64,000 nt of DNA from contig NZ_LT607733.1 in NCBI RefSeq assembly GCF_900091445.1, forward strand, positions 3,116,501-3,180,500. The letters are read 5' to 3'. The translations under genes were made by a program, and so were the position numbers. Positions 9,920-24,690 of this stretch are shown here, in pieces. Each line of letters starts with the position of its first letter. Position 1 is the first letter of the stretch. Under the pieces are notes generated by a model that saw only the letters and a list, made by a program, of their open reading frames with translations, had not been told where the DNA came from and searched no databases. This DNA comes from Micromonospora echinofusca. GTDB lineage: Bacteria > Actinomycetota > Actinomycetes > Mycobacteriales > Micromonosporaceae.

Positions 9920-10261
9920 ATGGGCGAGCGTATGCTGCGTGGCAGCCGTCTGGGCGCGGTCAGCTACGAATCCGACCGCAACACGGAGCTCGCGCCGCGT
10001 CAGACCCGCGAGTACCTCTGCGCCAAGGGCCACCAGTTCGAGGTTCCGTTCGCCGTCGACGCCGAGGTCCCCACGACCTGGGAATGCAAGTTCGACGGCA
10101 GCGTGGCCCGGCTAGTCGACGGCAATGAGCCGGAGCAGAAGAAGGCCAAGCCGCCGCGCACCCACTGGGACATGCTGCTGGAGCGGCGCTCCATCGCCGA
10201 ACTGGAGGACATCCTCGCCGAGCGGCTGCAGGAGGTCCGCACCCGCCGCGGCCGCGCCTGA
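9920..10261 (+). CDS. rbpA: RNA polymerase-binding protein RbpA
   Basis: 113 residues, full length for RbpA. The N-terminal tail (MLRGSRLGAVSYESDRN) is followed by the core domain with EYLCAKGHQFEVPFAVDAEVP and TWECKFDG, whose cysteines and histidine resemble the structural zinc-site region. The C-terminal sigma-interaction helix is THWDMLLERRSIAELEDILAERL. RbpA binds the RNA polymerase beta/beta' clamp and the principal sigma factor and stabilises open complexes in actinobacteria. The order rbpA-fxsA-ppm is conserved with mycobacteria. Start ATG at 9920 has AGGGGAAG upstream. Confidence 0.97.
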   Translation: MGERMLRGSRLGAVSYESDRNTELAPRQTREYLCAKGHQFEVPFAVDAEVPTTWECKFDGSVARLVDGNEPEQKKAKPPRTHWDMLLERRSIAELEDILAERLQEVRTRRGRA

Positions 10262-10321: not shown

Positions 10322-10849
10322 TCAGTTACGGCCGGGCTCCACGATCTCACCCTCGATGGCCCGACCCCCGTCGACGACGACGACGGTCGGCTCGGCCGGC
10401 TGCGGCTCCGCCGGCGCGGCCGCGCCCCGACGCACCCGCACCCGCCGCGGCCCGAACAGGTCACCGGCCACCATCGACGACACCCGCCGCTCCGCCGCCC
10501 GCTGCACCCCGCCGCGCGCCAACCGGCGCACCGGCGGCACCAGCAACAACACTCCCACCACGCCGCTGAGCAGGCCCGGCAACGCCAGCAGCAGCGCACC
10601 GAGCAGCCCGACGAGACCGTCGGTGACCTGCCGGCCCGGCGGCTGCCCGGCCTGCGCGGACGCCTTGAAGCCCCGCCAGGCCCGCATCCCCTCGCGGCGC
10701 AGCAGCACCAGCCCGAGCAGCGACGCCGCGAACACCGCCAGCAGCGTCGAACCGAACCCGATCGCCCGTCCCACCGCGACGAACACCACCAGCTCCAGCA
10801 ACACCGCCGCCAACAGGGCCAACGGCACAAACCTCAGTCCTCGGCGCAT
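10322..10849 (-). CDS. fxsA: FxsA family membrane protein
   Basis: 175 residues. Three or four hydrophobic helices occupy roughly residues 7-30, 33-50, 78-105. The FxsA features are VLLELVVFVAVGRAIGFGSTLL at the N-terminus, then the RREG loop and LLALPGLLSGVVGVLLLVPPVRR. In E. coli FxsA relieves F-plasmid exclusion of phage T7; its cellular role in actinomycetes is unknown. The C-terminal ~60 residues are Arg/Pro/Glu-rich and cytoplasmic. It is convergent with rbpA across a strong hairpin and adjacent to ppm, as in mycobacteria. Confidence 0.9.
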   Translation of the reverse strand: MRRGLRFVPLALLAAVLLELVVFVAVGRAIGFGSTLLAVFAASLLGLVLLRREGMRAWRGFKASAQAGQPPGRQVTDGLVGLLGALLLALPGLLSGVVGVLLLVPPVRRLARGGVQRAAERRVSSMVAGDLFGPRRVRVRRGAAAPAEPQPAEPTVVVVDGGRAIEGEIVEPGRN

Positions 10850-10933: not shown

Positions 10934-11740
10934 TCAGGGCCACCGGACCTGACCGGTGCGGGTGCCGTGCAGGCCCCGCCGCAACGCCACCCGCCGGTCC
11001 TGCACCGCCCACGTCGTGATCCGCCACAGCGCCTCCACCACGATCAGCGGACTCATCTTGCTGCTGCCGCGTTCCCGCTCGGCGAACGTGATCGGCACCT
11101 CCACGATGCGCGCCCCCGAACGGTGCGCCAACCGCGACAGCTCCACCTGGAACGAGTAGCCCTGCGAACAGACCGACTCCAGGTCGATGGCGTCCAGGGC
11201 CGCCAGCCGGTACACCCGGTAGCCGCCCGTCGCGTCGGACAACGGCATGCCCAACGCCAGCCGCGCGTACAGGTTGCCGCACCGCGACAACAGCAGCCGC
11301 CGCAGCGGCCAGTTCACCACCCGCGCCCCGGCGGTCCACCGCGAACCGATCACCACGTCGGCGTCGCGGGCCGCCGCCAGCAGCGCGGGCAGATCCTCGG
11401 GGGCGTGCGAACCGTCGGCGTCCATCTCCACCACCGCGTCGAAGCCACGCTCGCGGGCCCACGCGAACCCCGCCAGGTAGGCCGCCCCCAGGCCCTGCTT
11501 GCCCTCGCGGTGCAGCACGTGCACCCGGCCGTCGGCGCCCGCCAGGGCGTCGGCGACCGCGCCGGTACCGTCCGGGCTGTTGTCGTCGGCGACCAGGATC
11601 TCCACCGCCGGCGCGGCACGACGCACCCGCGCCACGATCCGCGCCACGTTGTCGGCCTCGTTGTAGGTCGGGATCACCACGAGCACCCGACCCACCCCCG
11701 GCTGACCGGTGTCCGCCCGGGTACCGGTCGTCTCGCCCAC
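10934..11740 (-). CDS. ppm1: Polyprenol monophosphomannose synthase
   Basis: 268-residue GT2 glycosyltransferase, GTG start with GGAGGGG upstream. Motifs: VVIPTYNEADNV near residue 22, ADDNSPDGT, the DXD-type EMDADGSHAPED, and TGGYRVYR, all typical of dolichol/polyprenol-phosphate mannose synthases. It moves mannose from GDP-mannose to polyprenyl phosphate, the donor for lipoglycan and protein O-mannosylation. The gene lies just downstream of lnt. In Mycobacterium tuberculosis the two activities are fused in one Ppm1 polypeptide; here they are separate genes 33 bp apart. Confidence 0.93.
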   Translation of the reverse strand: MGETTGTRADTGQPGVGRVLVVIPTYNEADNVARIVARVRRAAPAVEILVADDNSPDGTGAVADALAGADGRVHVLHREGKQGLGAAYLAGFAWARERGFDAVVEMDADGSHAPEDLPALLAAARDADVVIGSRWTAGARVVNWPLRRLLLSRCGNLYARLALGMPLSDATGGYRVYRLAALDAIDLESVCSQGYSFQVELSRLAHRSGARIVEVPITFAERERGSSKMSPLIVVEALWRITTWAVQDRRVALRRGLHGTRTGQVRWP

Positions 11741-11773: not shown

Positions 11774-13369
11774 TCAGCCGCCGTGGTGCCGGCGGCGCAG
11801 CACGACCGCGCCCGCCAGGGCCGCCACGGCCAGGGCGGCCAACGCCACCTCCGGCCACAGCCCGACCCGCGTGGCCAGGGTGCGCCCGTCGTCCAGCCGC
11901 AGCTGCCGCACCACGACCGCTCGGGTGTTGAACCCGGTGGCGTCGCTTACCCGCCCGTCCGGGGCAACGAACCCGGACACCCCGACCGTCGAGGCCATCA
12001 ACGCCGGCCGCCCGTGCTCCACCGCCCGCAACCGCACCATGGCCAACTGCTGACGCGCCTCGGCCACGTCGAACGTGGCGTTGTTGGTCTGCACCACCAG
12101 CAACTGCGCCCCACCGGTCACCGTGTCACGCACCACCTCGTCGTAGGCGACCTCGAAACAGATCACGTCGCCGAGCACCGCCGCCCCGCTGTCCAGCACC
12201 CCCGGCTCGCTGCCCGGCACGAAATCGGCGCGCACCCGGTCGACCTGCTTGCTGACCATCCGGGCCAGATCACGCATCGGCACGTACTCGGCGAACGGCA
12301 CCGGATGCCGCTTGGTGTACAGCTGCGCCAGATCCGGGCCACTGCCGGGCCGCCACAGGATGCCCGCGTTACGGACCTGACCGTCGCCCGGGCCACGCAG
12401 CACCGCACCCACCAGGACCGGGGCACCGACCGCGTCGGCGGCCTGCGAGATGCGCGCCCCGGCATCGGTGTCGCGCAGCGGGTCGATGTCGCTGGAGTTC
12501 TCCGGCCACACCACCAGGTCGGGGCGGGGCCGCACGCCGACGGCCACCTGCCCGGCCAGCTCGATCGTGGCGTCGACGTGGTTGTTCAGCACCGCCTGCC
12601 GCTGCGCGTTGAAGTCCAGGCCGAGACGCGGCACGTTGCCCTGCACGATCGCCACCGTCACCGCGTCGCCGCCCCCCACGGCGGCCACCGGCACCAGCAG
12701 CCCCACCACGGGCACCGCGACCGCCCCCGCGCTCAACCCGGCCACCGGCACCCACCAGCGCCGCCGCCCGCCCCACGGCCGCCACAGCGCCGCCACCAGC
12801 AGCCCACCGGTCAACGCCACCGCGAACGTCACCAGCGGCGCCCCACCCCACGCGGCCAGCCGCAGCAGCGGCGAGTCACCCTGACTGAACGCCAGCCGCC
12901 CCCACGGGAACCCGCCGAACGGCGTACGGTCACGCAGCGCCTCCTGCCCCACCCACAACACCCCGGTCACCGCCGGCCAGCTCCACCGCAGCCGGTCCAC
13001 CAGCGGCGACACGTACGCGCCCGCCGCGCCCAGCAACGCCAGGTAACCGGCCTGCAACAGCGACAAGAGCACCCACGGCAGGTAGCCGGTGTGCAGGTTC
13101 GTCCAGCTCAACAGCGGCGCGAACAACGCCACCCCGGTCAGGAAACCCAGCCCCGCCCCGGCGCGCAGCCGACGGCGGTGCGTCGCCGCCGCCAGCAACG
13201 CCACCCCCAGCGGCGCCAGCGGCCACAGCCCGTACGGCGGAAACGCCCCCAGCAACGCCAGACCCGCCGCCACCGCCATCGGCGCGGCCACCCGCAACGG
13301 CAACGCCTCCGCCCGCCCGGCAGGCCGGTCGTCGTCCCCGGTCGCCGCCGGTCGATTCCCCACGATCAC
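11774..13369 (-). CDS. lnt: Apolipoprotein N-acyltransferase
   Basis: Predicted 531 residues from GTG 13369, which lies 7 nt after TAGCCT. N-terminal half has about six to eight transmembrane helices (from LRVAAPMAVAAGLALLGAF). The C-terminal half is a nitrilase-type domain with the Glu-Lys-Cys triad recognisable in VVWPENSSDIDP, YTKRHPVPFAEYVP and DVICFEVAYDEVV. It transfers an acyl chain to the N-terminal cysteine of lipoproteins in the membrane. It probably forms one transcription unit with ppm1. An upstream in-frame start near 13441 exists but would run over the -10-like box. Confidence 0.92.
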   Translation of the reverse strand: MIVGNRPAATGDDDRPAGRAEALPLRVAAPMAVAAGLALLGAFPPYGLWPLAPLGVALLAAATHRRRLRAGAGLGFLTGVALFAPLLSWTNLHTGYLPWVLLSLLQAGYLALLGAAGAYVSPLVDRLRWSWPAVTGVLWVGQEALRDRTPFGGFPWGRLAFSQGDSPLLRLAAWGGAPLVTFAVALTGGLLVAALWRPWGGRRRWWVPVAGLSAGAVAVPVVGLLVPVAAVGGGDAVTVAIVQGNVPRLGLDFNAQRQAVLNNHVDATIELAGQVAVGVRPRPDLVVWPENSSDIDPLRDTDAGARISQAADAVGAPVLVGAVLRGPGDGQVRNAGILWRPGSGPDLAQLYTKRHPVPFAEYVPMRDLARMVSKQVDRVRADFVPGSEPGVLDSGAAVLGDVICFEVAYDEVVRDTVTGGAQLLVVQTNNATFDVAEARQQLAMVRLRAVEHGRPALMASTVGVSGFVAPDGRVSDATGFNTRAVVVRQLRLDDGRTLATRVGLWPEVALAALAVAALAGAVVLRRRHHGG

Positions 13370-13457
13370 GCGCCGAAGGCTACCCGCCCGTACCGCCGCC
13401 GCCCCGCCACGCCCACCCGGCCGCTCTGCCCCCGCCGCCAACGGACACCGGACACAA

Positions 13458-13839: not shown

Positions 13840-15180
13840 TCAATCCGTGCCCAGGTGCCGCCGCAGCAACGCCACCGCCGCCACCGGATGCTCCGCCGCC
13901 AGCAGCCCACCGGCGGCCAGCACGTAGTCGACGTCGACCACCGGCCGGGCCGCCCGCGGCAACGCCCACCCGCCGGCATGATCCGTCAGCACCGCACCCA
14001 GCACCCCCGCCGCGTCCACCGGCGCGGCATGCCGCAACACCCCACCCGAGCCCACCAGCAGCCGCACGTCGCGCAGGTCCCGCCCGGCCCGCTCACCCGT
14101 CGCGGCACCCCGCGCGTGCCGCCGCAACGCCACCGTCGCCGCCAACGCCGCGATCCGGGCGTCCACCGCACGGTCCGCCTCCCCTGCGGGCAGGAAACCC
14201 GGATCGGCGGCCCGCGCCGCCGCCCCCGCCGCCAGCGCGTCGCGCTCCGCGTCGGTGAGCAACCGCTCCTCCGCCGCCGCCCGCACCACCCCCGGCGCGC
14301 TCCACCGCATACCCAGATCGCCCTCGACCGTACGGGCCCGCCACAGCGACCCCGCCACCTCCCGCCCCGGCCCCGTCGCCCGCTCGTCCGGCGTCAACAC
14401 CGAGTACACGTCCGTGGTGGCGCCCCCCACGTCCACCACCACCAGATCACCACCCAGCGCGTCGGCCAGCACCTCCACCCCGGTCAACACCGCGTCGGGG
14501 GTGGCCGCGCGCACCAGCCGCGCGAACCGCGACCCCCGCGACAACCGCTTCCCGCCGATCACGTGCCGCAGGAACACCTCCCGGATGGCCGCCCGCGCCC
14601 CCGCCGGCGCCAACACCCCGATGCGCGGCAGCACGTTGTCGGCCACCGTCACCGGCACCCCCGCCGCCGCCAGCACCGCGTGCAGCTCCTCGCGGACGTC
14701 GACGTTGCCCGCAAGGACCACCGGCACCCGCCAGCGGGCCCGCGCCAGCCGCGTCGCGTTGTGCGTCAACGTCTCGGCGTCCCCGCCGTCGGTGCCACCC
14801 ACCAGCAGCACCACGTCCGGGCGGGCCGCCCGCAACCCGGCCAGGTCCGCCGCGCCGAGCCGACCCGCCGCCACGTGCACCACGTTCGCGCCCGCCGACA
14901 GGCCCACCCGCCGGCCCGCCTGCGCCGTCACCAGCCGCTCGTATCCGATGACCGCCAACCGCAGCCCACCACCGGCCGACGAACACACGTACCACGGCGC
15001 ATCCCGCACACCAGGCAACCCGGCGCGGGCCGCCCCGACCGCCGCGTCCAGGCCGTGCAGCACGTCCGTACCCACCGTCGTCGGCGCCGACGACGCACCC
15101 ACCAACGCGCCGACGTCAAGGTCCACCACCGCCACCTTCGTGTACGTGGACCCGACGTCGGCGCAGACCGCGTACCTCAC
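13840..15180 (-). CDS. GlmL/MutL-like ATPase, probable aminomutase reactivase
   Basis: 446 residues of the ASKHA ATPase fold. The N-terminus has DVGSTYTKVAVVDLD (phosphate-1 loop). VVLLVGGTDGGDAETLTHN and, near residue 260, VVVDVGGATTDVYS (phosphate-2) follow. This is the GlmL/MutL family found beside adenosylcobalamin-dependent glutamate and ornithine mutases and thought to exchange damaged cobalamin. It is not the DNA repair MutL. The GTG start overlaps the kal stop (GTGA), and it ends the aminomutase operon. It probably reactivates KamDE, a job done by the unrelated KamB/KamC proteins in clostridia (inference). Confidence 0.85.
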   Translation of the reverse strand: MRYAVCADVGSTYTKVAVVDLDVGALVGASSAPTTVGTDVLHGLDAAVGAARAGLPGVRDAPWYVCSSAGGGLRLAVIGYERLVTAQAGRRVGLSAGANVVHVAAGRLGAADLAGLRAARPDVVLLVGGTDGGDAETLTHNATRLARARWRVPVVLAGNVDVREELHAVLAAAGVPVTVADNVLPRIGVLAPAGARAAIREVFLRHVIGGKRLSRGSRFARLVRAATPDAVLTGVEVLADALGGDLVVVDVGGATTDVYSVLTPDERATGPGREVAGSLWRARTVEGDLGMRWSAPGVVRAAAEERLLTDAERDALAAGAAARAADPGFLPAGEADRAVDARIAALAATVALRRHARGAATGERAGRDLRDVRLLVGSGGVLRHAAPVDAAGVLGAVLTDHAGGWALPRAARPVVDVDYVLAAGGLLAAEHPVAAVALLRRHLGTD

Positions 15181-15569
15181 GCCGCGGGCGGAACGACCAC
15201 CGTGCCGGTCGCCGTGACCGCCACGACCGGCTCGTCGAGCACCTCCGCCGCCGACTCACCCCGATCCGGACGCCCCCGACACACCACTCGCGCCTCGAAG
15301 TCGATCGTGCGGCTACGCGTACCCACCCGGGTCACCGTCGCCGTCACCTCCAACACGTCCCCCGCCTTCATCGGCGCCCGGAACTGCACATCCGAGTACG
15401 ACGCGAACAACCCCTCGTCACCATCGGTGCGGATACACACCTCCGTGGCCACGTCCCCGAACAACCCCAACGCGTACGCCCCGTCGACCAGGTCGCCCGC
15501 GTAGTGGGCGTGCGAATACGGCACATACCGCCGGTGCACCACCGTCAGACCCACCCGGGAATCACTCAT
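15177..15569 (-). CDS. kal: 3-aminobutyryl-CoA ammonia-lyase (hot-dog fold)
   Basis: 130 residues, the usual size for Kal. A single hot-dog domain is suggested by VVHRRYVPYSHAHYAGDLVDGAYALGLFGDVATE, then FASYSDVQFRAPMKAGDVLEVTATVTRVG. Kal removes ammonia from L-3-aminobutyryl-CoA to give crotonyl-CoA, the last dedicated step of lysine fermentation. ATG at 15569 overlaps the kamE stop (ATGA), and the gene also overlaps the next one. Other acyl-CoA hot-dog enzymes cannot be ruled out from sequence alone, but position directly after kamE makes Kal the best call. Confidence 0.85.
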   Translation of the reverse strand: MSDSRVGLTVVHRRYVPYSHAHYAGDLVDGAYALGLFGDVATEVCIRTDGDEGLFASYSDVQFRAPMKAGDVLEVTATVTRVGTRSRTIDFEARVVCRGRPDRGESAAEVLDEPVVAVTATGTVVVPPAA

Positions 15570-16342
15570 GCCTTCGCCTTCTTCTCGATCAACGCGTGCA
15601 CCAGGAAACTCGCCACCTCACCCGGAGTCGTCCCCCGGCCGAAGATCCGATCCACGCCCAACTCACCGGCCATCGTCTCGTCGAACCGCGGCCCACCCAC
15701 GATCAGCAGCGGCCGACGCCCCGCCGGCATCGCCTCCCGGAACGCCGCCGACATCTCCCGCGTGTTGTGCAGATGCGCATCCCGCTGCGTCACCACCTGC
15801 GACACCAGCACCGCATCCGCCCGCTCCACCCGGGCCGCCTCCACCAACTCCGGCACACTCACCTGCGCCCCCAGGTTGGTGACCTTCAACTCCCGGTAGT
15901 ACTCCAGACCCTTCTCACCGGCGATGCCCTTGACGTTGAGGATCGCGTCGATGCCGACCGTGTGCGCGTCCGTACCGATGCACGCCCCCACCACCGACAA
16001 CTTGCGCCGCAACCGCCGCTTCACCACCGCGTTGACCTCCTTGGCGCTCAGCAGCGGAAAGTCACGCTCCACCACCTGCACCGCCGACAGGTCCACCAGA
16101 TGGTTCACCCGCCCATACACCACGAAGAACGTGAAACCCTCACTCATCGGCTTGGCGTGCACCAGCATCGCCGGATCGATGCCCATCTTGTTCGCCAACT
16201 GCACCGCCGCGCCCTCGGCCCGCTTGTCGTGCGGCACCGGCAACGTGAACGACACCTGCACCATGCCGTCGCCCGTGGTGTCCCCGTACGGCCGCACGAC
16301 CTTCTTCCCGGCGGCCCCGCCGCCGGCCTCCACGGCGCTCAC
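15566..16342 (-). CDS. kamE: Lysine 5,6-aminomutase, beta (cobalamin-binding) subunit
   Basis: 258 residues. The C-terminal Rossmann domain holds the base-off cobalamin motif GTDAHTVGIDAILNVKG. His127 would ligate cobalt, and Lys138, eleven residues later, corresponds to the lysine that forms the PLP aldimine (His133/Lys144 in the clostridial enzyme). GGPRFDETMAGELGVDRIFGRGTTPGEV forms the rest of the B12 pocket. With KamD it shifts the terminal amino group of beta-lysine from C6 to C5. GTG start overlaps the kamD stop (GTGA). Both key residues are intact, so the enzyme should be active. Confidence 0.93.
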   Translation of the reverse strand: MSAVEAGGGAAGKKVVRPYGDTTGDGMVQVSFTLPVPHDKRAEGAAVQLANKMGIDPAMLVHAKPMSEGFTFFVVYGRVNHLVDLSAVQVVERDFPLLSAKEVNAVVKRRLRRKLSVVGACIGTDAHTVGIDAILNVKGIAGEKGLEYYRELKVTNLGAQVSVPELVEAARVERADAVLVSQVVTQRDAHLHNTREMSAAFREAMPAGRRPLLIVGGPRFDETMAGELGVDRIFGRGTTPGEVASFLVHALIEKKAKA

Positions 16343-17901
16343 GCACCCGCCCCTTCCAGGATCTCGGTGGCCGGATTGAAGTAGCCGGCCTCGTGCGCGG
16401 CCACCCCCGCCAACCCCTTGCCCCGGTCCGCCGGCCGCTTCATGATCCCGAACGTGCCCTCGGCGATCGCCGTCAACAACGACTGCTCACCGATACGCTC
16501 CAACAACTCGACCGCCTCCGAGAGCACCCGGTTGGCCCGCTGCTGGATGAACCCACCCGGCGCCGGCACGAAATCCTCGTGCAACCCACCCGCCGCACCC
16601 AGCACATACCGCACGTTCTGCAACGCGATGTCCCGGTCCGACAACCACGGCGTCACCACCGCCTCGGTCATCATCCCCACCAGCAGGATCCCCTGCCCCG
16701 TCATCGTGCCCACCAGGTTGAAGAACCCGTCCAGCAGATTGCCCCGGAACACGTCACCCGTCATGTGCTTCGTCGGCGGCATCCACTTCAACGGCGCGTC
16801 CGGGAACAACTCCCGCGCCAACAACGCGTGCGCCAACTCCAGCCGGAACGACTCCGGCACATCCGGGTTGATCTCGAACGCGTGCCCCAGACCCAACTGC
16901 CAGTCCGCCAACCCCGCCTCGTGCGCGAAGAACTCGTTGAGCAACTGCGACACCGTCACCGTGTGCGCCTCGTCCACCGCGTCCGCCGTGGTCAGGTAGT
17001 TGTCCTCACCGGTGTTGATGACGATCCCCGCCCGCGCGTGCACCTGCCGCGAGAACCGCTGGTCCACGAACGTACGGATCGGATTGATGTCCCGGAACAG
17101 AATCCCGTACATCGAATCGTTCAACATCATGTCGAGCCGCTCCAGGCCCGCCAACGTCGCCATCTCCGGCATGCACAGACCCGACGCGTAGTTCGTCAAC
17201 CGCACGTAGCGGCCCAACTCCCGCGACGTCTCATCCAACGCCGCCCGCATCAACCGGAAGTTCTCCTGCGTCGCGTACGTGCCCGCGAACCCCTCCCGCG
17301 TCGCACCCTCCGGCACGTAGTCCAACAACGACTGCCCCGTCGACCGGATCACCGCGATGACGTCCGCACCCGCCCGCGCCGCCGCCTGCGCCTGCGGAAT
17401 GTCCTCGTAGATGTCCCCCGTCGCCACGATCAGATAGATCCACGGCCGCTGCTTCGGATCCCCGAACCGCTTCACCAGCCGGTCCCGCTCCGCCCGCCGC
17501 CGGTCGATCGCCCGCACCCCCGCACCGACCGCCCGCCGCGCCGCCCGCCGCGCCGCCGTCGCGGCCTTCCCCGTCGGCACCTCGAACCGCACCGACCCCG
17601 CCGCCGCCTTCTGCGCCAGCAACGTCACGTCACCGAGCTGCTCCCGGGCCAACGCGTCGAACACCGGCAACGCCACCCCGTGCCCCAACCCCACGTCCGC
17701 GACCACCGCGTCCACGAGCCGGTTCACCCACGGAATCCCGTCCGGATCGGCACCGGAAACCCCGGCCAGCCGCAACACCGCCCGCTCCACCGACACCGTC
17801 GTGTGGCTACGCGCCAGATCCACCACCGGCTGACCCGCACGGCGCGCCAACTCCCGCGCCCGCGCCACCAACCGCGGATCCAGATCAAGCTTGCCCGTCA
17901 C
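16339..17901 (-). CDS. kamD: Lysine 5,6-aminomutase, alpha subunit
   Basis: Predicted 520 residues, close to the family size, from GTG 17901 (MTGKLDLDPRLVARARELARRAG), which has GGTGGGGTGA upstream; a longer frame to 17937 gives an unlikely Arg/Trp start. The TIM-barrel core includes VIRSTGQSLLDYVPEG, TYATQENFRLMRAALDE, MMLNDSMYGILFRDINP, GIVINTGEDNYLT and KWMPPTKHMTGD, all typical of KamD. It binds PLP and, with KamE, adenosylcobalamin to convert L-beta-lysine to 3,5-diaminohexanoate. It is second-to-third in the operon, 58 bp after the amidohydrolase and coupled to kamE. Confidence 0.93.
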   Translation of the reverse strand: MTGKLDLDPRLVARARELARRAGQPVVDLARSHTTVSVERAVLRLAGVSGADPDGIPWVNRLVDAVVADVGLGHGVALPVFDALAREQLGDVTLLAQKAAAGSVRFEVPTGKAATAARRAARRAVGAGVRAIDRRRAERDRLVKRFGDPKQRPWIYLIVATGDIYEDIPQAQAAARAGADVIAVIRSTGQSLLDYVPEGATREGFAGTYATQENFRLMRAALDETSRELGRYVRLTNYASGLCMPEMATLAGLERLDMMLNDSMYGILFRDINPIRTFVDQRFSRQVHARAGIVINTGEDNYLTTADAVDEAHTVTVSQLLNEFFAHEAGLADWQLGLGHAFEINPDVPESFRLELAHALLARELFPDAPLKWMPPTKHMTGDVFRGNLLDGFFNLVGTMTGQGILLVGMMTEAVVTPWLSDRDIALQNVRYVLGAAGGLHEDFVPAPGGFIQQRANRVLSEAVELLERIGEQSLLTAIAEGTFGIMKRPADRGKGLAGVAAHEAGYFNPATEILEGAGA

Positions 17902-17959
17902 ACCGTCACCCCACCCTGCCCCGCGACGGCGCCACACGCCGTACCGATGGATCGCTCGC

Positions 17960-19534
17960 TCACGAAGACCCTTCCTCGAAGATCACGTCACCACGCAACA
18001 CCGTGCGCCGACACACCGGCAGCGGCGTCGGATCCTGCGGACCACGCGCCTCCGGATCCGCCGCCAACAACACCGGTAGACCCCGCTCCACCCCCGCCGG
18101 CGTCGACCACACCGCGAACGTCGCCGGCGCCCCCAACGCCAACACACCCTCGTTGTCCAGCCGCACCGCCCGCCACCCACCACGGGTATGCGCCGCGAAC
18201 GCCGCCCGCACACTCATCCGCTGCGCCGGGCTGTGATGCCACACCGCCGCCCGCACCGAACCCCACGGATCCAACGGCGTCACCGGCGAATCCGACCCGA
18301 ACGCCAACGCCACCCCCACCGCGTGCATCGCACCCATCGGATTCGACTCCAACGACCGGTCCAACCCCAGCCGCGACTCGTACATCCGACCCGCACCGCC
18401 CCACAACCGGTCGAACGCCGGCTGCATGCTCGCCACGATCCCGTACTCCACGAACCCCGCGATCAACCGCTTGTTCATGATCTCCGCGTGCTCGATGCGG
18501 TGCCGCGCCGCCCGCACCCGGTCCGTGCCCAGCTTCTCCGCCGCCCCCGCGAACCCCTCCAACACCGTCGAGATCGCCGCGTCACCGATCGCGTGGAAAC
18601 CACCCTGCACACCGTGCGCCGCACAGTCCAACAGATGATCCCGCACCTGCTCCGCACTCAGATAACCGTGACCACACCCACCGTCACCGTCCAGGTAGTC
18701 CCGCGACACGTGCGCCGTACGCGACCCCAACGCCCCGTCGGCGAACAGATCACCACCCGCACCCACCGCACCCAACTCCCGGGCCCGCGCCGCACCACCC
18801 AGCTCACCCCAGTACCCGTACACCTCCGCCACGCCGTCACCCGACAACGCCAACAGACCCGTGAAGTCCTCCTCGTCGGAGATCTCCGGACCACCGCACT
18901 CGTGCACCGCCGCGACACCCAACGACGCCGCGTGCCCCAACGCCGCCCGCTGCGCCGCCACCCGCTGCGCCCGCGTCACCGACGCGAACGCCGCCGCCCG
19001 CACCACGTGGTGCGCGTCGCGCCGCAACCACCCCGACGCGTCGTACCCCACCGCAAACACCACCTGCGGACACGCCGCCAGCAACGCCTCCGACACCAAC
19101 GCCGAATGGATCGACGCCTGCGACAGATAGACCCGCCGCCCCCCGGCCGCCCGGTCCACCATCGCCGCGTCCGGCAGCTCCGGCACCGGCCAACTCGACT
19201 CGTCCCAGCCGTGCCCCAGCACCACCGCGTCCGACGGCAATCCCGCCGCGAACCCCGCCACCGCGTCCAACAGCTCCGCCGCCGAACGCACCCCCGATAG
19301 GTCCAGCCCCGACAACGCCAACCCCGTGTCCGTGGCGTGCACGTGCGCGTCCACGAACGCCGGCGTCACCAACGCCCCGTCCAGATCCACCACCCGGTCG
19401 GCGGACGGCGCGTCCGCGTCCACCCCCAGCCAGGAGATCCTGCCGTCGGACACCAGCAGAGCCGTCGCGCTCGGATCGGCCGGGCAGTGCAGCGTCCCGC
19501 CGCGGTACAGAGTCGAGGGGTTCGTCATGACCAT
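17960..19534 (-). CDS. YtcJ-like metal-dependent amidohydrolase
   Basis: About 524 residues from ATG 19534 (or 522 from ATG 19528). The amidohydrolase metal motif is VDAHVHATD near residue 62. Later ligands are suggested by GGFHAIGDAA, ARHRIEHAEI and FGSDSPVTPLDPW. YtcJ-family enzymes hydrolyse N-acyl, amide or cyclic C-N bonds; few have known substrates. The start overlaps the kdd stop by one base (TGATG), so it is co-translated with the lysine pathway genes. That makes an N-acyl-amino acid or lactam deacylation feeding or protecting this pathway conceivable, but this is inference only. Confidence 0.85.
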   Translation of the reverse strand: MVMTNPSTLYRGGTLHCPADPSATALLVSDGRISWLGVDADAPSADRVVDLDGALVTPAFVDAHVHATDTGLALSGLDLSGVRSAAELLDAVAGFAAGLPSDAVVLGHGWDESSWPVPELPDAAMVDRAAGGRRVYLSQASIHSALVSEALLAACPQVVFAVGYDASGWLRRDAHHVVRAAAFASVTRAQRVAAQRAALGHAASLGVAAVHECGGPEISDEEDFTGLLALSGDGVAEVYGYWGELGGAARARELGAVGAGGDLFADGALGSRTAHVSRDYLDGDGGCGHGYLSAEQVRDHLLDCAAHGVQGGFHAIGDAAISTVLEGFAGAAEKLGTDRVRAARHRIEHAEIMNKRLIAGFVEYGIVASMQPAFDRLWGGAGRMYESRLGLDRSLESNPMGAMHAVGVALAFGSDSPVTPLDPWGSVRAAVWHHSPAQRMSVRAAFAAHTRGGWRAVRLDNEGVLALGAPATFAVWSTPAGVERGLPVLLAADPEARGPQDPTPLPVCRRTVLRGDVIFEEGSS

Positions 19535-20595
19535 CAGTCTGCCGCGAGTCGCGCCTCGAACAACGCCCGCACCCCCGGCTCCGACCGCAGCAGACCGAGC
19601 GCGAACTCCGCGTGCCCCGGCACGTAACCGTTGCCGACCAGCATCGTCACGTCCGCCGCCAGGCCCTCCGCCCCCAACGCCGCCGCCGCGAAACTCGTCG
19701 CCATCGAGAAGAACACCACCGTGCCGCCGTCCGCCGTCGCCAGCACCGCCCCGTGCTCACAGCCCGGCACGTCCACGCACACCACCGTCACGTCCGCCGG
19801 CGCCTCCAACGCCGTCGTCACCGCCGTCGACAGCGCCACCGGATCCCGGGCGTCGGCCAACGCCACCGCGTCCGCCAGCCCCACCGCCGTCAGCGCGTCC
19901 CGCTCCGCCACCACCGGCACCACCCCGACCGTACGGGCGGCACCCGCCCGCCGCGCCGCCGCCAGCGACAGCGACCCGCTCTTGCCCGCGCCACCGATCA
20001 CCGCCACCCGCACCGGCGTCGGGTCCCCCGCCCGCTCCCGCTCCACCACGTACCGCGACACCACCCGCGCCGTCAGCGCCGGAGCCCCGCACACGTCCAG
20101 CACCGCCAGGGACAGCTGCGGGTCCAGGTCCGCCGGCAGCACCGCCGCGATCGACCGGGCGAACAGGATCGCGTACCCGTCGCACGGCACCTGCTCGCTG
20201 CGCCCGTCCCAGCGGGCCAACCCGTCGAGGATCGTCAGCGGCGTCAACGTCAGCGACACCAGGGTCGCCACCCGCTGCCCCACCCGCAGCCCCAGCGGGG
20301 AACGCCGCCCCGCCTCCTCCACCGTGCCGATCAGCATCCCGCCCGACCCCGTCACCGGGTTCTGCATCTTGCCCCGCGCGGACACGATCTCAAGCACCTC
20401 GGCGCGCACCGCGTCGCCGTCCCCGCCGTGCTTCTCCCACAACTGCCGGAAGCTCGCCGCGTCCAGGTTCAACCGCTCCACCCGGATCCGCACCTCGTTC
20501 GGCGCGATCTCCGGACTCGCGTCCAGCCGCCACGCGGCCTGCGGCAGCACCCCCGCCGGTTCGACAACGCGGTGCAGACCCACCGGTGACGTCAC
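19534..20595 (-). CDS. kdd: 3,5-diaminohexanoate dehydrogenase
   Basis: 353 residues, near the family size. It has EIAPNEVRIRVERLNLDAASFRQL, QNPVTGSGGMLIGTVEE and a central nucleotide-binding region with RVAVIGGAGKSGSLSLAAARRAGA, the distinctive Kdd Rossmann motif. Kdd oxidises L-erythro-3,5-diaminohexanoate to 3-keto-5-aminohexanoate using NAD+ or NADP+. GTG at 20595 is the first start of the minus-strand operon and faces kamA across 144 bp. It precedes the amidohydrolase, where a kce cleavage gene would be expected in anaerobes. Confidence 0.9.
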   Translation of the reverse strand: MTSPVGLHRVVEPAGVLPQAAWRLDASPEIAPNEVRIRVERLNLDAASFRQLWEKHGGDGDAVRAEVLEIVSARGKMQNPVTGSGGMLIGTVEEAGRRSPLGLRVGQRVATLVSLTLTPLTILDGLARWDGRSEQVPCDGYAILFARSIAAVLPADLDPQLSLAVLDVCGAPALTARVVSRYVVERERAGDPTPVRVAVIGGAGKSGSLSLAAARRAGAARTVGVVPVVAERDALTAVGLADAVALADARDPVALSTAVTTALEAPADVTVVCVDVPGCEHGAVLATADGGTVVFFSMATSFAAAALGAEGLAADVTMLVGNGYVPGHAEFALGLLRSEPGVRALFEARLAAD

Positions 20596-20739
20596 GCCGA
20601 CCTCCCCCTGTCACGCCGCTCGAAGCCCCGGCCAGGGCTCGCGTAGCGGGAAAACTTCCGGCAGACTAATTTCTTCACCGAATATTTTCCAGTAGCCTTC
20701 GGGATCGCTGATCAACCCGCACCACATCGAGGAGGGGCC
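20596..20739. promoter_or_regulatory. Divergent control region between kdd and kamA
   Basis: This 144-bp gap must carry both promoters. It contains an AT-rich stretch unusual for the window at 20667-20692 (CTAATTTCTTCACC then GAATATTTTCC). GGAAAA at 20649-20654 and TTTTCC at 20685-20690 form a widely spaced inverted repeat. CCGAATATTTTCCAG loosely resembles the Lrp site pattern YAGHAWATTWTDCTR, and an AsnC/Lrp gene lies 2.2 kb away. GGAGGGG precedes the kamA GTG. The regulator is not proven. Confidence 0.5.
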
Positions 20740-22146
20740 GTGACCCAGACCCAACCGGTGGAGACCCTGCCCCCGCCCCACCCCGCGCCGGTCGCGGTAC
20801 CCACCGCCGGACAGCCCTACGAATACCGCCGCGCGCCCCTCGTCGAGCCCGACTGGACCCGCTTCCCCGGCTGGCGCCACATCACCCGCGAGCAGTGGGA
20901 GAACGCACAGTGGCAGCGCGTCAACTGCGTCAAGAACATCAAGCAGCTGCGCACCGTCCTCGGCGACACGGTCGACGAGACCTTCTACGCCGACCTCGAG
21001 GCCGACCAGAAGGCCCTGGCCACCATGTCCATGCTGGTGCCGCCACAGATGATCAACACGATGGTGCCGTTCGCGCCGATGACCACCGAGGCGTTCCTCG
21101 CCGACCCCATCCGGCGCTACATGATCCCCGTCGCCTCCGACCGGCGCACCGACTGGCCCTCCCACCCGTACGCCAGCCGCGACTCCCTGCACGAACACGA
21201 CATGTGGGTCGCCGAGGGCCTCACCCACCGCTACCCCACCAAGGTCCTCGCCGAGCTGCTCTCCACCTGCCCCCAGTACTGCGGGCACTGCACCCGCATG
21301 GACCTCGTGGGCAACTCCACCCCCGCCGTCGACAAGCTCAAGCTGACCCTCAAGCCCGTCGACCGCTACGACGCCCACATCGGCTACCTCAAGGCCCACC
21401 CCGGCGTCCGTGACGTCGTCGTCTCCGGTGGCGACGTCGCCAACGTGCCGTGGAAGAACCTCGAGTCCTACCTGATGCGGCTGCTGGAGATCGAAACCAT
21501 CCGCGACATCCGGCTCGCCACCAAGGCCCTCATGGGCCTGCCCCAGCACTGGCTCCAGCCCGACGTCGTCGAGGGCCTCGAACGCGTCGCCCGCACCGCC
21601 GCCCGCCGAGGCGTCAACCTCGCCATCCACACCCACGTCAACCACGCCCAGTCGCTCACCCCGCTGGTCGCCAGGGCCGCCCAGACCGCCCTCGACGTGG
21701 GCGTACGCGACGTACGCAACCAGGGCGTGCTCATGCGCGGCGTCAACGCCACCGCCCCCGACCTGCTCGACCTCTGCTTCGCCCTCCAGGGCGAGGCGGG
21801 CATCCTGCCGTACTACTTCTACATGTGCGACATGATCCCCAACGCCGAGCACTGGCGGGTGCCGGTCTGGCACGCCCAGCAGCTCCAGCACGACATCATG
21901 GGCTACCTGCCCGGCTACGCCACGCCGCGCATCGTCTGCGACGTCCCCTTCGTCGGCAAGCGCTGGGTGCACATGCTCACCGAGTACGACCGCGACCGCG
22001 GCATCTCGTACTGGACGAAGAACTACCGCACCTCCATCGAGTCCGCCGACGCCGAGGCGCTCAACAAGCGCCACGCCTACTACGACCCGATCGACACCCT
22101 GCCCGAGACCGGGCAGCAGTGGTGGGCCGAGCACCGCAACGACTGA
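20740..22146 (+). CDS. kamA: Lysine 2,3-aminomutase family radical SAM enzyme
   Basis: 468 residues, GTG start behind GAGGAGGGG. The [4Fe-4S]/SAM motif CPQYCGHC places cysteines at 177, 181 and 184. VVSGGDVA follows, and two carboxylates that bind the lysine side-chain amine in characterised enzymes are likely in FYMCDMIP and RIVCDVPF. The family moves the alpha-amino group of L-lysine to C3 with SAM and PLP. Details differ from classical clostridial KamA (CTRMDLVG in place of CTRRRFAG), so it is a divergent branch. Divergent pairing with the kdd-kamDE operon supports beta-lysine as product. Confidence 0.88.
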   Translation: MTQTQPVETLPPPHPAPVAVPTAGQPYEYRRAPLVEPDWTRFPGWRHITREQWENAQWQRVNCVKNIKQLRTVLGDTVDETFYADLEADQKALATMSMLVPPQMINTMVPFAPMTTEAFLADPIRRYMIPVASDRRTDWPSHPYASRDSLHEHDMWVAEGLTHRYPTKVLAELLSTCPQYCGHCTRMDLVGNSTPAVDKLKLTLKPVDRYDAHIGYLKAHPGVRDVVVSGGDVANVPWKNLESYLMRLLEIETIRDIRLATKALMGLPQHWLQPDVVEGLERVARTAARRGVNLAIHTHVNHAQSLTPLVARAAQTALDVGVRDVRNQGVLMRGVNATAPDLLDLCFALQGEAGILPYYFYMCDMIPNAEHWRVPVWHAQQLQHDIMGYLPGYATPRIVCDVPFVGKRWVHMLTEYDRDRGISYWTKNYRTSIESADAEALNKRHAYYDPIDTLPETGQQWWAEHRND

Positions 22147-22407: not shown

Positions 22408-23019
22408 ATGGGAGAGCTTCTGCTGATCCGGCACGGCGAGACCACCTGGAGCGCCAGCCGGAGGCACACCTCGTACACCGACCTCCCTCTCACCCCCGAC
22501 GGCGAGCGGCAGGCCCGCATCCTCGGCCGGTTCCTCGCCGGCCGACGCTTCGCCGCGGTCCTCACCAGTCCCCGCGCCCGGGCGCTGCACACCGCGCGGC
22601 TGGCCGGCCTCACCGTCACCGGCACCCTCGACGACCTGGCCGAATGGAACTACGGCGAGTACGAGGGGCGGACCACCGCCGACATCAGCGACGACCACCC
22701 GAACTGGTCCATCTGGACCGACGGCTGCCCCGGCGGGGAGTCCCCCAACCAGGTCGGCGAACGCCTCGACCGGGTGCTCGCCCGGGTCCACCCACTGCTC
22801 GACCGGGGCACCGTCGCCCTCGTCGGGCACGCCCACAGCCTGCGCGTGCTCGGCGCCCGCTGGGTCGGCCTGCCGCCCTCGGCCGGCGGGCTGCTGCGGC
22901 TGGACACCGCCACCGTCAGCGTGCTCGGCCACGAGCACGGCCGACGGGTCATCCTGCGGTGGAACCAGCCGGTTCCCCCGACGCCCGGGAACGCACCCGA
23001 ACGTGGGACTCGGCACTGA
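22408..23019 (+). CDS. Histidine phosphatase family protein
   Basis: Predicted 203 residues from ATG 22408. LLLIRHGETTWS at residues 4-15 carries the catalytic histidine of the phosphoglycerate-mutase-like (GpmB/CobC) superfamily. VLTSPRARALHTARLAG holds the second arginine pair, EWNYGEYEG the proton-donor acid and VGHAHSLRVLGARW the second histidine. It dephosphorylates small phosphate esters; the substrate is not evident. The 3' end overlaps the convergent AsnC gene by 71 bp, with no terminator space between them. Confidence 0.88.
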   Translation: MGELLLIRHGETTWSASRRHTSYTDLPLTPDGERQARILGRFLAGRRFAAVLTSPRARALHTARLAGLTVTGTLDDLAEWNYGEYEGRTTADISDDHPNWSIWTDGCPGGESPNQVGERLDRVLARVHPLLDRGTVALVGHAHSLRVLGARWVGLPPSAGGLLRLDTATVSVLGHEHGRRVILRWNQPVPPTPGNAPERGTRH

Positions 23020-23455
23020 TCTTCGGCGGCCGGTTCTCGTACGGCGTCGACAGCACCACCGTCGTACGGGTGGTGACGTTCGCCGCCGTACGGATCTCCT
23101 GGAGCAGCCGCTCCAGGTCCGCCGGGCTGGCCACCCGCACCAGCAGGAGGTAGAAGTCCTCCCCCGCCACCGAGTAGCACGAGTCGATCTCCGGCAGGTG
23201 GGCCAGCCGCTCCGGCGCGTCGTCGGGCTGCGACGGGTCGAACGGTCGGATCGCCACGAACGCGGTAAGCGGCAGCTCCAAGGCCTCGAAGGAGACGCGG
23301 GCGGCGTACCCCTTGATGACGCCGCGCTGCTCCAGGCGGCGCACCCGCTGGTGCACGGCGGAGACCGACAGGCCCACCCGCTCCGCCAGATCGGTGTACG
23401 ACAGCCGACCGTCAGCGGTCAGCGCGGCGATGATGGCGCGGTCGATCTCCTCCAC
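22949..23455 (-). CDS. Lrp/AsnC family transcriptional regulator
   Basis: Predicted 168 residues from GTG 23455, 7 nt after TAGGTT; a TTG at 23464 would add three residues. The helix-turn-helix is LTADGRLSYTDLAERVGLSVSAVHQRVRRLEQRGVI, followed by the RAM ligand domain (LTAFVAIRPF, then IDSCYSVAGEDFYLLLVRVAS with the G-D/E-Y/F-D-like motif). Such proteins sense amino acids and regulate their metabolism. It lies 2.2 kb from the lysine aminomutase control region, which has an AT-rich, Lrp-site-like stretch, so it is a candidate regulator. The C-terminal tail runs 71 bp into the opposite phosphatase gene. Confidence 0.88.
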   Translation of the reverse strand: MEEIDRAIIAALTADGRLSYTDLAERVGLSVSAVHQRVRRLEQRGVIKGYAARVSFEALELPLTAFVAIRPFDPSQPDDAPERLAHLPEIDSCYSVAGEDFYLLLVRVASPADLERLLQEIRTAANVTTRTTVVLSTPYENRPPKISAESHVRVRSRASGEPAGSTAG

Positions 23456-23547
23456 GGCGTGCAACCTACCGGGAAAACCGCGCCACGGCGACGACGCGGC
23501 CCGCCGGCGCGACGCGGCACACGCGCCGGCCGGCGGGACGACGCCCG

Positions 23548-24690
23548 TCAGCCCTTCGCCAGCGCCCGGGAGATGACCAGCCGCTGGATCTGGTTGGTGC
23601 CCTCCACGATCTGGAGCACCTTGGCCTCGCGCATGTAGCGCTCCACCGGGTGGTCGGCCACGTAGCCGGCCCCGCCCAGCACCTGCACCGCGTCGGTGGT
23701 CACCCGCATCGCCACGTCGGTGGCGAAAAGCTTCGCCTTCGCCGCCTCGATCGAGTACGGCCGGCCAGCGTCACGCAGCCGGGCCGCGGCCAGCGTCAAC
23801 GCCCGGGCCGCGGAGATCTGGGTCGCCAGGTCGGCGAGGGTGAACCCCAGCCCCTGGAAGTCGATGATCGCCTTGCCGAACTGCTGGCGTTCCCGGGCGT
23901 AGCCGACCGCGTAGTCCAGCGCCGCCTGGGCCAGCCCCACCGCGCAGGCGGCGATGCCGAGGCGCCCCGAGTCGAGCGCGGACATCGCGATGGTGAAGCC
24001 CGCCCCCTCCCCGCCGATCAGCCGCTCGGCCGGCACCCGGGCCGAGTCGAAGGCGATCTGCGCCACCGGGGAGGCGCGCAGCCCCATCGTGCGCTCGGCC
24101 GCCTGCGGCGCGATGCCCGGCGTGTCGCGGTCGGCCAGCAGGCAGGAGATGCCCTTCGGGCCGGGCCCGCCGGTACGGCAGAAGATGTTGTAGAAGTCCG
24201 CCACCTGGGCGTGGGTGATCCACGCCTTGGTGCCGTCGACCAGGTAGGCGTCGCCGTCGCGTACCGCCCTCGTCGTCAGCGCGGCGGCGTCCGAGCCGCC
24301 CTGCGGCTCCGACAGGCAGTACGCCCCGAGCAGCTCCCCGCCGACCATGGCGGGCAGCAGCTTGCGCTGCTCGTCGGTGCCGAACTGCGCCAGGGGGTAG
24401 CAGGACAGCGTGTGCACGCTGACCGCCTCGGCGACCGCGAGCCAGCGGCTGGCCAGGATCTCCAGCACCTGGAGGTACACCTCGTAGGGCTGGGCGGCGC
24501 CGCCGTGCTCCTCGGCGTACGGCAGGCCGAGCAGGCCGGCCCGCCCGAGGGTGCGCAGCACCTCGCGGGGGAACTCCGCGCGTTCCTCGAACCCGGCGGC
24601 CCGTGGCGCCAACTCCCGGTCGGCGAGTTCGGTGGCGAGGTCGAGCAGGTCGTGGGCCTCGTCGGTGGGGAGGATCCGGTCGACAGTCAT
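23548..24690 (-). CDS. Acyl-CoA dehydrogenase
   Basis: Predicted 380 residues from ATG 24690, overlapping the stop of the M24 peptidase (ATGA). FAD contacts are in YCLSEPQGGSDAA and KAWITHAQVADFYNI; KGISCLLADRDTPGI and MGLRASPVAQIAFD form the beta domain; RQQFGKAIIDFQGLGFTLADLA and VQVLGGAGYVADHPVERYMREAKVLQIVEGTNQIQ are the C-terminal helices with the likely catalytic glutamate in VEGTNQ. It desaturates an acyl-CoA and passes electrons to ETF. Chain specificity cannot be told. It could in principle handle C4 acyl-CoA arising from the lysine route (speculative). Confidence 0.92.
   Translation of the reverse strand: MTVDRILPTDEAHDLLDLATELADRELAPRAAGFEERAEFPREVLRTLGRAGLLGLPYAEEHGGAAQPYEVYLQVLEILASRWLAVAEAVSVHTLSCYPLAQFGTDEQRKLLPAMVGGELLGAYCLSEPQGGSDAAALTTRAVRDGDAYLVDGTKAWITHAQVADFYNIFCRTGGPGPKGISCLLADRDTPGIAPQAAERTMGLRASPVAQIAFDSARVPAERLIGGEGAGFTIAMSALDSGRLGIAACAVGLAQAALDYAVGYARERQQFGKAIIDFQGLGFTLADLATQISAARALTLAAARLRDAGRPYSIEAAKAKLFATDVAMRVTTDAVQVLGGAGYVADHPVERYMREAKVLQIVEGTNQIQRLVISRALAKG

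Follow-up and report, generated by a model that had tools for sequence, protein, structure and literature searches.

A probable two-locus lysine route and an amidohydrolase neighbour in Micromonospora echinofusca

The subject of this work is a lysine aminomutase (kam) gene cluster within a stretch of 64,000 nucleotides of Micromonospora echinofusca (hereafter the window; positions 3116501-3180500 of NZ_LT607733.1, a 7.0 Mb single-contig genome), in which kamA, kdd, kamD, kamE and kal stand together with the genes of a YtcJ-like amidohydrolase and a GlmL-like ATPase. We consider it likely that the genome carries the complete lysine route of the anaerobic fermenters, leading to crotonyl-CoA and acetoacetate, divided over two loci and probably oxidative in its use, and that the amidohydrolase is an inherited neighbour of the cluster.

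The kam cluster and the unlinked Kce-type gene

The gene order given in a preliminary description of this DNA, with kamA divergent from a coupled run of kdd, the amidohydrolase gene, kamD, kamE, kal and a glmL-like gene, was confirmed: reading frames are intact in all seven cluster genes; kamD and kamE, kamE and kal, and kal and mutL overlap by four bases at their ends; kdd and the amidohydrolase gene have one base in common. The cluster is composed as follows.

20740..22146, plus strand: kamA, divergent KamA-family radical S-adenosylmethionine (SAM) aminomutase, probable lysine 2,3-aminomutase (TIGR00238, below cut-off; PDB 2a5h)
20596..20739, no strand: kamA-kdd intergenic region, putative divergent promoter region (by position and AT-rich stretches)
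19534..20595, minus strand: kdd, L-erythro-3,5-diaminohexanoate dehydrogenase (NF052381, 267 bits, cut-off 200)
17960..19534, minus strand: Amidohydro_3 (YtcJ-like) metal-dependent hydrolase, resident neighbour and probably not a pathway enzyme (PF07969, 255 bits)
16339..17937, minus strand: kamD, lysine 5,6-aminomutase, KamDE (NF052384, 694 bits, cut-off 600; PDB 8t0v, 1xrs)
15566..16342, minus strand: kamE, lysine 5,6-aminomutase, KamDE (NF052385, 353 bits, cut-off 280; alignment to 9q1a)
15177..15569, minus strand: kal, 3-aminobutyryl-CoA ammonia lyase (NF052388, 198.5 bits, cut-off 160)
13840..15180, minus strand: mutL/glmL-like ATPase, possible aminomutase reactivase (MutL family PF13941, 464 bits; TIGR01319, 245.6 bits, cut-off 204)

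Kdd, KamD, KamE and Kal each exceed the cut-off of their NCBIfam equivalog, so that the lysine-fermentation enzyme set reported in the preliminary description for an actinomycete stands. KamD matches solved structures 8t0v (E 3.7e-163) and 1xrs (E 3.5e-158). The catalytic residues named in that description were likewise recovered: Cys177, Cys181 and Cys184 of KamA are invariant in an alignment of 18 sequences, and the stretches of KamE that hold His127 (DAHTVG) and Lys138 (NVKG), two residues presumed to be functional, align to the solved KamE 9q1a. The nearest kam locus among the best 80 of 537 found is that of Micromonospora sp. C31, with a KamD 96% identical.

A search of the window with the genome's own Kce-type gene (E 1e-10) gave no BKACE gene, and the absence of kce noted earlier therefore holds for the window; for the genome it does not. 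The search for BKACE/Kce genes that had been proposed returned two such genes, the stronger at 100638-101477, 3.0 Mb from the kam cluster, the other weaker (119 bits to PF05853) and not used as Kce. The best NCBIfam model of the stronger one is KCE (273 bits); among PDB entries it comes closest to the true Kce 2y7d (E 2e-60), of which it keeps the HxHIR, TGAE and ED positions, taken here to be those of the Kce active site. A tree built from 40 BKACE proteins groups it in one clade with the Kce of genome G034, which exceeds the curated KCE cut-off (408.5 against 382 bits), and with the Kce proteins of further genomes that carry KamD. When 77 genomes were searched with the own protein, every clade member scored at least 191.6 bits and all others at most 155.8.

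In a phylum sample of 396 genomes, searched for both KamD and Kce, the Kce clade is present in 14 of 18 KamD-positive genomes against 2 of 378 others (p = 1.7e-20), both of the latter being incomplete metagenome-assembled genomes (MAGs; 68% and 83%). A Kce-clade gene was also found in all 18 named KamD-positive genomes (18 chosen of 80), at 64-98% identity. Because a Kce-clade gene is present and tracks KamD across the phylum, the missing or altered cleavage step suggested in the preliminary description is not upheld. A better candidate for an altered step is genome G187, whose locus L034 (8213-17708) holds an ordinary lysine 2,3-aminomutase, kdd, kamDE and kal; no Kce-clade gene was found in this genome, the best BKACE being 35% identical.

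The reactions, their direction and their physiological use are predicted from these assignments. L-lysine would be converted to beta-lysine by KamA (radical SAM, pyridoxal phosphate) and beta-lysine to 3,5-diaminohexanoate by KamDE (adenosylcobalamin, pyridoxal phosphate), which the GlmL-like ATPase may service; Kdd would deaminate 3,5-diaminohexanoate to 3-keto-5-aminohexanoate, which the unlinked Kce would cleave, giving 3-aminobutyryl-CoA and acetoacetate; Kal would then release ammonia from 3-aminobutyryl-CoA to yield crotonyl-CoA, and acetoacetate would be activated by acetoacetyl-CoA synthetase. The host genera are known as aerobes, unlike the anaerobic lysine fermenters.

The same steps (kamA, kamDE, kdd, kce, kal) are named for anaerobes in the consulted parts of PMC3149608. 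As in Clostridium sticklandii and Fusobacterium nucleatum, KamD, KamE, Kdd and Kal are present by curated models and a Kce-clade gene is found in the genome; unlike in these, kce is unlinked, KamA belongs to a divergent subfamily, and no PF01144 CoA-transferase was found in this genome. A MutS-family gene is indicated for the anaerobe clusters in a figure legend of PMC3149608, whereas a GlmL-type ATPase is encoded here. The Cloacamonas variant, as outlined in the same parts of that paper, has kamA, kamDE, kdd and kce in common with the present genome and kat in place of kal; here kal is present, over its cut-off. In a passage of PMC3364876 one 'lysine aminomutase' is mentioned downstream of a polyketide gene. 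Judged by title and opening lines of the abstract, the open-literature matches listed included no account of the pathway for Micromonospora or for Nocardioides; no search named Kribbella. The enzymes are known ones, and the host group, the split layout, the KamA subfamily and the probable oxidative end are the variant features.

The KamA subfamily and the GlmL-like ATPase

The best NCBIfam model for KamA is TIGR00238 (170 bits, under the cut-off of 199.2), and its sole PDB match is the lysine 2,3-aminomutase 2a5h (AblA/KamA; E 3e-40). The cysteines of the iron-sulfur motif CxxxCxxC are conserved in 19 of 19 alignment rows, as are the counterparts of Arg134, Asp293 and Asp330 of 2a5h, presumably the substrate-binding arginine and the two substrate-binding aspartates. 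Two differences from 2a5h were noted: the window KamA has no cysteine after residue 400, and the motif DVPxVGK stands in place of DAPGGGGK, than which it is one residue shorter (both taken to be the pyridoxal phosphate lysine motif). DVPxVGK is found in 18 of the 19 rows, and the sole exception, from G187, is an ordinary lysine 2,3-aminomutase (605 bits, cut-off 525) to which the window KamA is 28% identical; on sequence grounds the window KamA is for this reason placed in a separate subfamily. It is a probable lysine 2,3-aminomutase all the same, and the subfamily would lend itself directly to assays that ask which substrate it uses and how well it tolerates oxygen.

At locus L235 (genome G017) kamA adjoins lrp and the amidohydrolase gene while kdd, kamD, kamE and kal are unmatched, an arrangement that may be a decay intermediate or may point to a KamA with another use.

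The GlmL-type ATPase noted at the end of the gene run was substantiated by its matches to PF13941 and TIGR01319. Its score is over the family cut-off of TIGR01319, as in the GlmL/MutL family of B12 mutase accessory proteins; it stays under the GlmL equivalog NF040745 (330 against 475 bits) and also under the ornithine Or-4 equivalog cut-off. Of 66 named loci with 4 kb or more past kamD, 53 have the gene after kal; since the other 13 lack it (12 of Kribbella or Nocardioides, one of an unclassified MAG), the set does not always include it. The ATPase may maintain KamDE.

The amidohydrolase and its chromosomal block

The genes on both sides of the kam cluster recur, in other genomes, around the amidohydrolase gene; those concerned, with further block markers, are listed here.

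23548..24690, minus strand: acyl-CoA dehydrogenase, conserved neighbour (best NCBIfam model acryloyl-CoA reductase, 359 bits, below cut-off 640; synteny)
22949..23464, minus strand: Lrp/AsnC-family regulator, a neighbour conserved where kam genes are present and in some blocks without them (synteny)
11774..13441, minus strand: lnt, apolipoprotein N-acyltransferase, block marker (PF20154 and PF00795; synteny)
10934..11740, minus strand: ppm-like glycosyltransferase family 2, block marker (PF00535; synteny)
10322..10849, minus strand: fxsA, block marker (PF04186; synteny)
9920..10261, plus strand: rbpA, block marker (PF13397; synteny)

At E 1e-30 the amidohydrolase has matches in 105 of the 396 genomes, including 13 of the 18 KamD-positive ones, and orthologues of 46-58% identity occur in every sampled genome of two families, f2 (14 genomes) and f4 (11 genomes), all of which are KamD-free. 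Twenty amidohydrolase loci were inspected, one of which (L234) is from a KamD-positive genome. Among the 19 KamD-negative loci the amidohydrolase gene lies at most 1.3 kb from lnt or ppm in 17; lrp is within 1 kb in six of these 17, an acyl-CoA dehydrogenase gene within 4 kb in six, and matches to kam genes were found in none. These four genes, lnt, ppm, lrp and the acyl-CoA dehydrogenase gene, are the neighbours seen in the window itself. Of the other two KamD-negative loci, one is L235, described above; at the other, L236, there is no block marker and a dehydrogenase gene is 7 kb away.

The converse arrangement is seen in four Nocardioides loci, where kam genes are present and the amidohydrolase is absent; the four genomes hold distant homologues only, 29-32% identical along most of the protein; in one of the four, a MAG, a piece of 132 residues is 46% identical and the remainder 29%. 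The amidohydrolase tree follows family for the most part, with kam-bearing and kam-free members mixed. The residues His64, His66, His314, His349 and Asp415, which we assume to be putative metal ligands, are invariant in 11 of 11 aligned sequences, including one encoded by a KamD-free genome. The adjacency of kdd, the amidohydrolase gene and kamD reflects a shared position and does not by itself demonstrate a shared function; the enzyme is probably a resident neighbour in an old chromosomal block and not a member of the pathway. An enzyme fixed in a gene cluster across distant groups may, as a caution, be a neighbour of the pathway and no part of it.

In locus L044 (genome G085; 14950-19492) genes for phosphate acetyltransferase and phosphoketolase are found between kdd and the amidohydrolase gene of the kam cluster.

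Several results weigh against a complete two-locus route with an inherited amidohydrolase. For the amidohydrolase, the gene order proved, on the survey that had been proposed, not to be confined to one strain: of 75 named loci showing both kdd and kamD, 71 have the gene between the two, and so do all seven f9 loci, which lie outside the class and whose proteins are 32-36% identical; this constancy could also mean a shared role. Several deep splits of the tree are weakly supported. KamA reaches 156 of the 525 bits set for the lysine 2,3-aminomutase equivalog TIGR03820 and is under the cut-off of every NCBIfam model matched. The unlinked BKACE is under the KCE equivalog cut-off (273 against 382 bits); the Kce clade was not found in four of the 18 KamD-positive genomes (G187, 97% complete; G059, 90%; G179, 85%; G391, 65%); at no examined locus did a BKACE turn up in the roughly 10 kb on either side of the kam genes (own query, E 1e-10); and 77 genomes of the 396 were searched with the own protein, the judgement on the remaining 319 coming from the family search. 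Lysine 6-aminotransferase is found in 0 of 18 KamD-positive genomes against 29 of 378 others, a difference that is not significant (p 0.38), and an anticorrelation with KamD was not used as a sign that kam is the lysine route.

Three other readings were considered. The amidohydrolase could be an accessory enzyme of the lysine pathway, for instance hydrolysing a lactam or N-acyl side product formed from the amino-acid intermediates, and kept for another use after loss of the kam genes. Amidohydro_3 members can be deacylases, and its place inside the coupled run, with kdd on one side and kamD on the other, speaks for such a role, being seen in two groups far apart; its wide distribution where kam genes are absent, its absence from four Nocardioides loci in which the kam genes remain, and a tree that does not track kam presence speak against, and we regard this reading as unlikely. 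Less probable again is a cluster that supplies beta-lysine or 3,5-diaminohexanoate (as a solute, for EF-P modification or for a natural product) and is not degradative: the divergent KamA subfamily and the kamA retained in G017 are compatible with supply, whereas Kdd and Kal, over their cut-offs, and the co-occurring Kce-clade gene are degradative steps, and the chromosomal site of the cluster is conserved across many genera. The suggestion that the amidohydrolase takes the place of Kce, performing or replacing the cleavage, for example by hydrolysing a beta-keto acid, has its position in the cluster and its intact putative metal ligands in its favour and is rejected as highly improbable, given a Kce-clade gene that exists and tracks KamD, orthologues in kam-free genomes where the block persists, the same invariant residues in one KamD-free genome, and Nocardioides kam loci without the enzyme.

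Pathway end, history and samples

The search for butyryl-CoA and acetoacetate genes, also proposed earlier, gave a divided result: acetoacetyl-CoA synthetase is encoded in the genome (828 bits, cut-off 521), and a PF01144 CoA-transferase of the AtoDA type has no match in it (control search positive in 6 of 14 genomes). With the synthetase present and PF01144 absent, an oxidative end is expected, and the products are probably oxidised and not turned into butyrate. A cobalamin adenosyltransferase is also encoded in the genome. Near kce, an acyl-CoA dehydrogenase cluster member is found in five f9 loci and a cobalamin adenosyltransferase cluster member in three (one example confirmed for each). 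In one f9 locus, L158 (12457-15562), genes for both enzymes lie about 4-7 kb from kce.

For the two-locus route with its amidohydrolase neighbour, the simplest history would be an early block in which kam genes flanked the amidohydrolase gene, followed by repeated loss; the ancestral order may have been acyl-CoA dehydrogenase gene, lrp, kamA and kdd, amidohydrolase gene, kamD, kamE and kal, lnt, ppm. Most likely the kam genes were present in an early actinobacterium and were lost repeatedly in many lineages with the amidohydrolase left behind; transfer with later loss of the kam genes may have occurred instead of early presence. A wider proposal, put forward tentatively and at somewhat less than an even chance, is that a B12- and radical-SAM-dependent route from lysine to acetyl-CoA was ancestral in Actinobacteria, continues in oxidative form in Micromonosporaceae, Kribbella and Nocardioides, whose KamA would be an oxygen-adapted subfamily of its own, and was lost in relatives such as f2 and f4, where the amidohydrolase-lnt pair would mark the old site. 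If these readings are right, a pathway of anaerobes from gut and sludge would also serve a large group of soil actinomycetes as a common lysine route of long standing. Genomes seemingly without the cleavage step would then carry Kce at a second locus.

In the region between kamA and kdd (20596-20739) the AT-rich sequences GGAAAACTTCC and TTTTCC were noted as possible regulator sites, which relatives share in part; a conserved operator is not claimed, as each 8-mer is common to at most 8 of 29 representative loci. An Rfam scan of the window gave no match, and no riboswitch was found.

The named kam loci were the 80 best among 537 found and are therefore nearer relatives. Gene orders were taken from tblastn, because a simple gene caller missed or misplaced genes and called none in two AT-rich loci. 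KamD matches were obtained in 21 of the 396 genomes, of which 18 were counted as KamD (15 over the cut-off, three fragments of 381-431 bits) and three, at 141-145 bits, were set aside as ornithine aminomutase look-alikes. In one genome with a true KamD, loci L027 and L029 (G139:C1:2600722-2602379) show a second match, which resembles ornithine aminomutase.

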